DNA of 64,000 nucleotides from Chlorobiota bacterium (lineage in GTDB: Bacteria; Bacteroidota; Ignavibacteria; Kapaibacteriales; UBA961). Made by a program: the position numbers and the translations under genes. This document shows, one piece after another, positions 18,261 to 20,090 of the stretch; the first letter of the stretch is position 1; each line of letters starts with the position of its first letter. The notes under the pieces are model-generated. The model made no database searches. It was not told where the DNA came from and worked only from the letters and a program-made list of their open reading frames with translations. The stretch covers positions 1 through 64,000 of the forward strand of contig BJGZ01000006.1 of the NCBI GenBank assembly GCA_014191195.1, read 5' to 3'.

Positions 18261-20090
18261 ATGAGCAAAACCAAAGTGCAATTTTCTGATATAGTAGGTG
18301 TAAAACCTATTGTCACATCTGGTTCAATAGAAATAGAATTACAATCTCGAGGATATAAGGATTTCCCCGTGGAAGTCTATAATTTGAAAAATCCAGTAAT
18401 TATTGAGCATATCTACAGAGATTTTCTGATAGCAGGTGCTACTCTATTATTAACTAATACTTTCCATGCAAACAGAATTACTTTGGAACAAGCTGGCTTA
18501 AGTGATAAAGTATATGAAATAAATAGAAAAGCGGTGTGGATAGCCAGAACAGTTGCACTACAAAATGCTTATGTAGGCGGAGTAATTGGCCCTACAGAAA
18601 AATTCTTTGTCCCAATTGGTACTTTAACAGAAGATGAAGCACTACAAGTATTTATAGAACAAGCAGTTGCCTTAATAGATGGTGGTGCAGAATTAATAAT
18701 GCTCAAATCATTTATCGATATCGATGAATTAGAAATTGCTATTAAAGCCGTTCGTTCTGTTCATAATGATATACCAATTATAGCATTAAAAACATTTCCA
18801 GAAGATGGTAGTGTTTTAGCTACTTCCTATCCATCTGATATTGCATACAGACTTGAAAAATATGGGGTTTTGGCAATCGGAAGTAGCGGAACAGTTGGCC
18901 CTCAAAGAATGTGCGATATCATAAGAGCACTTTCTGTTACTTCGATACCATTATGCGCATTACCAGAAATTGCAATTCCAACCCTTGTTGATGGCCGTGC
19001 CGTTTATAATGCAGAGGTTGATTATGTGGCCTCTGTTGCTGTTTCTTTAGTACAAGGAGGCGCATGTATCATTGGAGCCGATGGGGGAGCTTCTGTTCAA
19101 CATATAAAAGCGATATCAGATGCAGTAACTAATCAAATTCCTGGATCTTCTAAATATATTCCAAAGCTGATAAAAGAAGTAAATACATTAGCTATTGATT
19201 CCGATAAAGTTTCTTCATTTGCTGAAAAAATAGGAAAGAAATTTTTAACTACAGTAGAAGTAGAAATTCCACGTGGATTAGATATTTCCAATGTAATACA
19301 AGCTGCATCATATTTAAAAGAACAAGGTATAGATGCAATTAATGTTTTTGACGGTGCAAGGGCAAGGGTAAGAATTAATCCGATAGCTGCTTCTTATATG
19401 ATTTCATCTGCCACAGGAATGGAATGTATTACTCATATTGCCTGTAGAGACAGAAATATGGTTGGTTTGCAATCAGATTTAATAGGAGCATATGCTTTAG
19501 GCGTAAAAAATATTCTAGCTGTTACCGGAGATCCTACATCAATTGGAGATTATCCATTTGCTACTTCGGTTTATGATGTTGATTCTATTGGATTAGTCAG
19601 AGCTGTAAATAGAATGAATCATGGTATGGATTTAATGGGCAATCCTTTGGGAAGATCTACACGATTTCTTATTACTTGTGCCGCTAATCCGGCGGCAGAT
19701 GATATAGAAAGAGAAATAAAACGATTAGAGAAAAAAGCTCAGGAAGGAGCTACCATGTACTTTACTCAGCCAATTTTTGATATAAAAACATTAGAGTATT
19801 TTCTTGATGCCACAAAACATCTTTCTATGCAATGTATTTTAGGAATTATTCCATTAAGAAGCATTAAACATGCTGAATTCTTACATTATGAAGTACCTGG
19901 AATGGTTGTGCCAGATTGGGTGAGAAAAAAACTAAAAGATGTCAATACTGATAGTGGAATCGAAGGTATGAATATTGCCATAGAGTTTTTGAAGCAAGCA
20001 AAAGGTCTTGTTCAAGGTGTGTACATTATGCCACCTGCAAAAAAATATGATATGGCTATTAATATCTTACATGCCGCAGATATTCTTTAA
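18261..20090 (+). CDS. Fused homocysteine S-methyltransferase-like / methylenetetrahydrofolate reductase
   Basis: A 609-residue two-domain protein organised like Bacillus YitJ. Residues about 1-295 resemble the homocysteine S-methyltransferase barrel (LLTNTFHANRITLEQAG). Residues about 315-609 resemble MTHFR: a catalytic-Glu region TVEVEIPRG, the FAD segment ITHIACRDRNMVGLQSDLIGA split around the Arg, LAVTGDP, and YFTQPIFD. MTHFR reduces 5,10-methylene-THF to 5-methyl-THF. The zinc-binding cysteines of the methyltransferase appear to be missing. The GxNC segment reads GSSG (207-210) and the GGCCGT segment reads GADGGA (272-277). The first domain is therefore probably not a standard homocysteine methyltransferase. 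No methionine or SAM riboswitch is evident upstream. Confidence 0.85.
   Translation: MSKTKVQFSDIVGVKPIVTSGSIEIELQSRGYKDFPVEVYNLKNPVIIEHIYRDFLIAGATLLLTNTFHANRITLEQAGLSDKVYEINRKAVWIARTVALQNAYVGGVIGPTEKFFVPIGTLTEDEALQVFIEQAVALIDGGAELIMLKSFIDIDELEIAIKAVRSVHNDIPIIALKTFPEDGSVLATSYPSDIAYRLEKYGVLAIGSSGTVGPQRMCDIIRALSVTSIPLCALPEIAIPTLVDGRAVYNAEVDYVASVAVSLVQGGACIIGADGGASVQHIKAISDAVTNQIPGSSKYIPKLIKEVNTLAIDSDKVSSFAEKIGKKFLTTVEVEIPRGLDISNVIQAASYLKEQGIDAINVFDGARARVRINPIAASYMISSATGMECITHIACRDRNMVGLQSDLIGAYALGVKNILAVTGDPTSIGDYPFATSVYDVDSIGLVRAVNRMNHGMDLMGNPLGRSTRFLITCAANPAADDIEREIKRLEKKAQEGATMYFTQPIFDIKTLEYFLDATKHLSMQCILGIIPLRSIKHAEFLHYEVPGMVVPDWVRKKLKDVNTDSGIEGMNIAIEFLKQAKGLVQGVYIMPPAKKYDMAINILHAADIL

Follow-up and report, generated by a model that had tools for sequence, protein, structure and literature searches.

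The zinc-dependent homocysteine S-methyltransferases MetH, BHMT and MmuM share a common fold and the Pfam family PF02574, and known representatives of the barrel family use zinc to activate a thiol (PMC539065). In Thermotoga maritima MetH (PDB codes 1q7m and 3bof), the homocysteine (Hcy) domain is paired with a pterin-binding barrel, and the metal is held by Cys207, Cys272 and Cys273. The profile PRK08645/NF006396 describes proteins of the YitJ type, in which a homocysteine methyltransferase (HMT) domain is fused to a methylenetetrahydrofolate reductase (MTHFR) domain, and its name, “bifunctional”, implies that the cysteine triad is present. A barrel with disabled zinc and Hcy sites has been described in the N-terminal half of MetE, where it is kept as the partner of an active barrel (PMC539065). 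A search of the open-access literature returned no report on PRK08645 or on an inactive HMT domain fused to MTHFR.

We analysed a fusion of this kind in a 64,000-nucleotide stretch of DNA from a Chlorobiota bacterium of the order Kapaibacteriales (the window). The gene occupies positions 18261–20090 of the forward strand, on which all of its features given below also lie, and encodes a protein of 609 amino acids. It matches NF006396 over its full length with 568.7 bits (curated cut-off 453), and the Pfam families PF02574 and PF02219 cover residues 19–289 and 325–577, respectively. Judged by these matches, the protein has the YitJ-type HMT–MTHFR architecture, and the open reading frame, its coordinates and the motif numbering of a preliminary description made from the sequence alone were all correct. 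The nearest named relative is Candidatus Kapaibacterium sp. MYJ.27, with 96% identity. The gene upstream encodes S1 domains and the one downstream is katG, on the opposite strand; no methionine genes were recognised among the recurrent flanking genes of the relatives, and Rfam matches are absent from the whole window, so that no upstream riboswitch was seen.

The first domain (residues 17–290, positions 18309–19130; 134 bits to PF02574) is predicted to be an HMT-type (β/α)8 barrel resembling those of BHMT and the Hcy domain of MetH. T. maritima MetH has the same fold and is its top sequence match in the PDB, and the alignment with this protein (1q7m) places Gly210, Asp274 and Gly275 at the zinc ligands Cys207, Cys272 and Cys273. 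The first of these residues ends a GSSG motif (residues 207–210, positions 18879–18890) and the other two lie in GADGGA (residues 272–277, positions 19074–19091), the two motifs from which the preliminary description had concluded, rightly, that the zinc-binding cysteines are missing. The triad that defines MetH, BHMT and MmuM and is implied by the name of PRK08645 is thus absent. The carboxylate that binds the amino group of homocysteine, the Glu of the FETF motif, is gone as well: it aligns to Lys149 (positions 18705–18707), which lies in an LKSF motif. Among the 64 non-redundant fusions of the Kapaibacteria clade this position is Lys in 57, Ser in four, Arg in two and Leu in one; it is Glu in all 18 Cys-bearing fusions. 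The Asp of the DGA motif is replaced by Ser20 in the window protein, and is retained in most relatives.

The HMT domain contains only three cysteines, Cys218, Cys232 and Cys269, which are situated in a helix (214–224), a strand (231–234) and another strand (268–271) of the predicted structure. Cys232 is a cysteine in 22 of the 64 relatives and Cys269 in five, no column of the domain exceeds 22 of 64, and neither other cysteines nor conserved histidines recur at the right places among these relatives to serve as substitute ligands. Chance, a sequencing error or a pseudogene was ruled out by the loss in 64/64 clade members and by the Ka/Ks values given below.

The AlphaFold2 model, built from an alignment of 57 rows, has a mean pLDDT of 90.9 and a pTM of 0.85. 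Its residues 5–293 resemble BHMT and MmuM at 2.2–2.5 Å, and residues 318–609 resemble MTHFR at 2.3–2.9 Å. Between them runs an inter-domain linker of low confidence (about residues 295–318, positions 19143–19214; pLDDT about 64–72 at residues 301–320). When both halves were superposed jointly on MetH, the fit was only about 15 Å, and the predicted arrangement of the two barrels is therefore unlike that in MetH. The second barrel (residues 319–609, positions 19215–20087; 103 bits to PF02219) shares with MetF the residues Glu333, Asp424 and Gln503, which are invariant and align to Glu28, Asp120 and Gln183 of the Escherichia coli enzyme, the equivalence of Glu333 being based on its place in the first strand. 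These three residues are catalytic in the MetF family. Fold, PF02219 match and retained Glu/Asp/Gln all point to an intact MTHFR half, in agreement with the preliminary description and as in other fusions of PRK08645. Its sequence is divergent: compared with the stand-alone MetF proteins of the same order, which score above 210 bits, this half scores only about 100 bits, and it is always fused to a barrel.

Despite the lost ligands, the HMT barrel has not decayed and is under purifying selection. Compared with the 96%-identical relative, the HMT half has a Ka/Ks of 0.059 and the MTHFR half one of 0.035. The slope of HMT against MTHFR distances is 1.40 within the Kapaibacteria clade compared with 1.11 in triad-keeping (CCC) fusions, and the HMT half is therefore only slightly relaxed. 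Of all parts of the barrel, the loops of the former active site vary least: they show 0.35 differences per site and the remainder 0.52, a pocket-to-rest ratio of 0.68 compared with 0.63 in CCC fusions. The clade has acquired near-invariant residues of its own (Ser22, Glu49, Phe55, Arg89, Trp93, Pro180, Asp236 and also Gly275), in addition to the Lys at position 149. Position 236, a clade-specific acidic residue of the former pocket (positions 18966–18968), is Asp in 63 of the 64 sequences and Glu in the window protein. The former ligand positions vary: residue 274 is Asp, Glu, Tyr, Ser, Cys or Ala, residue 210 is Gly or Ser, and residue 275 is Gly, Arg or His. In the secondary structure of the model, Lys149 and residue 236 each sit where a barrel strand reaches its C-terminal end, or close to it, and the two may form a salt bridge; that this contact replaces the metal is a guess from the model.

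In a tree built from the MTHFR half alone, the 64 fusions of the Kapaibacteria cluster together (SH-aLRT 89), their neighbours being CCC fusions of Kryptonia and Ignavibacteriales. A second tree of wider scope likewise unites the 23 of them that it contains (support 98). The triad was lost once, in the ancestor of these fusions; a lone Cys at position 274 occurs in two of the 64, the site being otherwise lost. Within the window's order, 43 directly read fusions outside family f3, the window's own included, are without the triad. The f3 fusions keep it, except for two members of one genus with only one cysteine. In these two (L046 and L050) a separate partial loss has produced INS/VNS...GGCLGT/GGCVGT, with the Hcy Glu kept. 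Nine of the 76 read fusions in an Acidobacteria-titled sample (L174, L176 and L201–L207) are without two of the three ligands, having Gly at Cys207 and Ser or Ala at Cys273 and keeping one Cys and the Glu; a metH-type HMT region is found less than 1 kb from the fusion in all nine genomes. The Gemmatimonadota-titled phylum has the triad in 30/30 read fusions. The wider tree, which combines 114 sequences of the MTHFR half, requires three changes; all three are demanded by branches whose support is 95 or higher, and similar losses have thus arisen separately in two other lineages. The two partial losses would presumably disable zinc binding as well.

The preliminary description had suggested a check for a second metH or metE gene, and an intact MetH was located elsewhere in the genome, its HMT domain retaining the triad as GLNC...GGCCGT. 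The activation domain of this MetH is encoded by a separate gene of 311 amino acids on the same contig. The enzyme appears to be split into a frame of ~930 amino acids that carries the HMT domain and, a few kb from it in the same orientation, the gene for the activation domain (G000:C11, 13221–14036 and 20717–21664; L054 and L001), and MetH frames of about 930–970 amino acids occur in several relatives too. The fusion is the only MTHFR in the window's genome, and all 58 genomes of the order that have an MTHFR have just one. Among the 48 genomes of the order with the zinc-less fusion type, five of them assigned by kinship rather than read, 38 have a second HMT domain above the cut-off. Another seven carry MetE in its place, and the remaining three, which are 86–91% complete assemblies, show neither. 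The seven MetE genomes (G018, G027, G032, G034, G040, G045 and G050; six belong to family f6) have kept the fusion and have no second HMT domain, and replacement of the B12-dependent enzyme therefore did not entail loss of the barrel. MetE and the MetH-type HMT domain are mutually exclusive in the order, MetE being absent from all its other genomes. A second HMT domain is also present in all 16 comparison genomes checked, most of which have intact fusions. The gain of a separate synthase consequently fails as a predictor of the loss, which it permits without predicting.

The fusion lacks all three zinc ligands as well as the Hcy carboxylate, and the genome encodes an intact MetH elsewhere. Loss of zinc-dependent homocysteine methylation, in line with the lost methyl transfer raised in the preliminary description, is therefore strongly supported. 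Most probably the protein functions as an MTHFR whose HMT barrel is catalytically dead and serves as a scaffold, or possibly in regulation. The preliminary description had also listed a structural role and a changed substrate; a structural or regulatory role fits best, and a changed ligand is less favoured. The fusion would then make the cell's methylenetetrahydrofolate reductase and hence supply 5-methyl-tetrahydrofolate, and methionine would be made by the separate MetH, or by MetE. Triad and Hcy carboxylate disappeared once, in the common ancestor of the fusions of the Kapaibacteria, and the pocket would have been remodelled, charged residues (Lys149 opposite Asp/Glu236, often with Asp274) possibly replacing the metal. 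The barrel would have been retained because the MTHFR half depends on it for folding, assembly or regulation; such a scaffolding or regulatory role we infer. The best precedent is the N-terminal barrel of MetE, likewise a disabled zinc/Hcy barrel beside a working one (PMC539065), although it arose by duplication within MetE and belongs to a different zinc barrel lineage, whereas the barrel described here is of the MetH/BHMT type and has MTHFR as its partner.

The strong conservation of the pocket, however, exceeds the needs of a pure scaffold and would be compatible with a new ligand as well. It keeps open the main rival, which we regard as unlikely: that the rebuilt pocket is a sensor, binding a methionine-cycle metabolite or a folate without zinc and thereby controlling the attached MTHFR. 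No other part of the barrel is as well conserved as the old pocket, which has gained near-invariant residues (Ser22, Pro180, Asp236 and Gly275, with Lys149 in most sequences), and the barrel is never dropped where this type of MTHFR persists; homocysteine, in contrast, is an improbable ligand, both acidic residues of its site being gone or variable. Eukaryotic MTHFR is controlled by a C-terminal SAM domain that is unrelated to the HMT barrel. That the dead barrel is an independent counterpart of it, a metabolite-sensing regulatory domain of bacterial MTHFR that arose one or more times, perhaps three, is likewise unlikely. The strong purifying selection on the pocket might also be expected of an enzyme acting on another substrate without zinc, but thiol activation by known members of the family relies on zinc (PMC539065) and the variation at positions 274, 210 and 275 leaves no new catalytic set at the places of the triad, which makes this reading very improbable. 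Least credible of all is zinc-dependent homocysteine methylation through other ligands. It could call on the three remaining cysteines, two of which the preliminary description had named as possible zinc ligands (Cys269, and Cys219, which is really Cys218), but these are unconserved and the predicted structure, to which that description had looked for another metal site, has them within a helix or strands, outside the ligand loops.

The automatic name “bifunctional” is misleading for the Kapaibacteria clade, a group of uncultured bacteria. Genome annotation and metabolic models assign them a second enzyme that forms methionine, which in all likelihood is missing. That the zinc site was lost repeatedly and across a whole clade while the barrel stayed suggests that, in this widespread fusion, the HMT half also serves MTHFR in a non-catalytic way. 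This raises the question of what the HMT half does in the fusions that kept zinc, a role that the natural zinc-less versions make testable.

The fusion of Candidatus Chrysopegis kryptomonas JGI-23 (L119:3001–4803), a CCC gene that is otherwise well preserved, contains two in-frame stops in its HMT half, which reflect either a sequencing error or recent decay.
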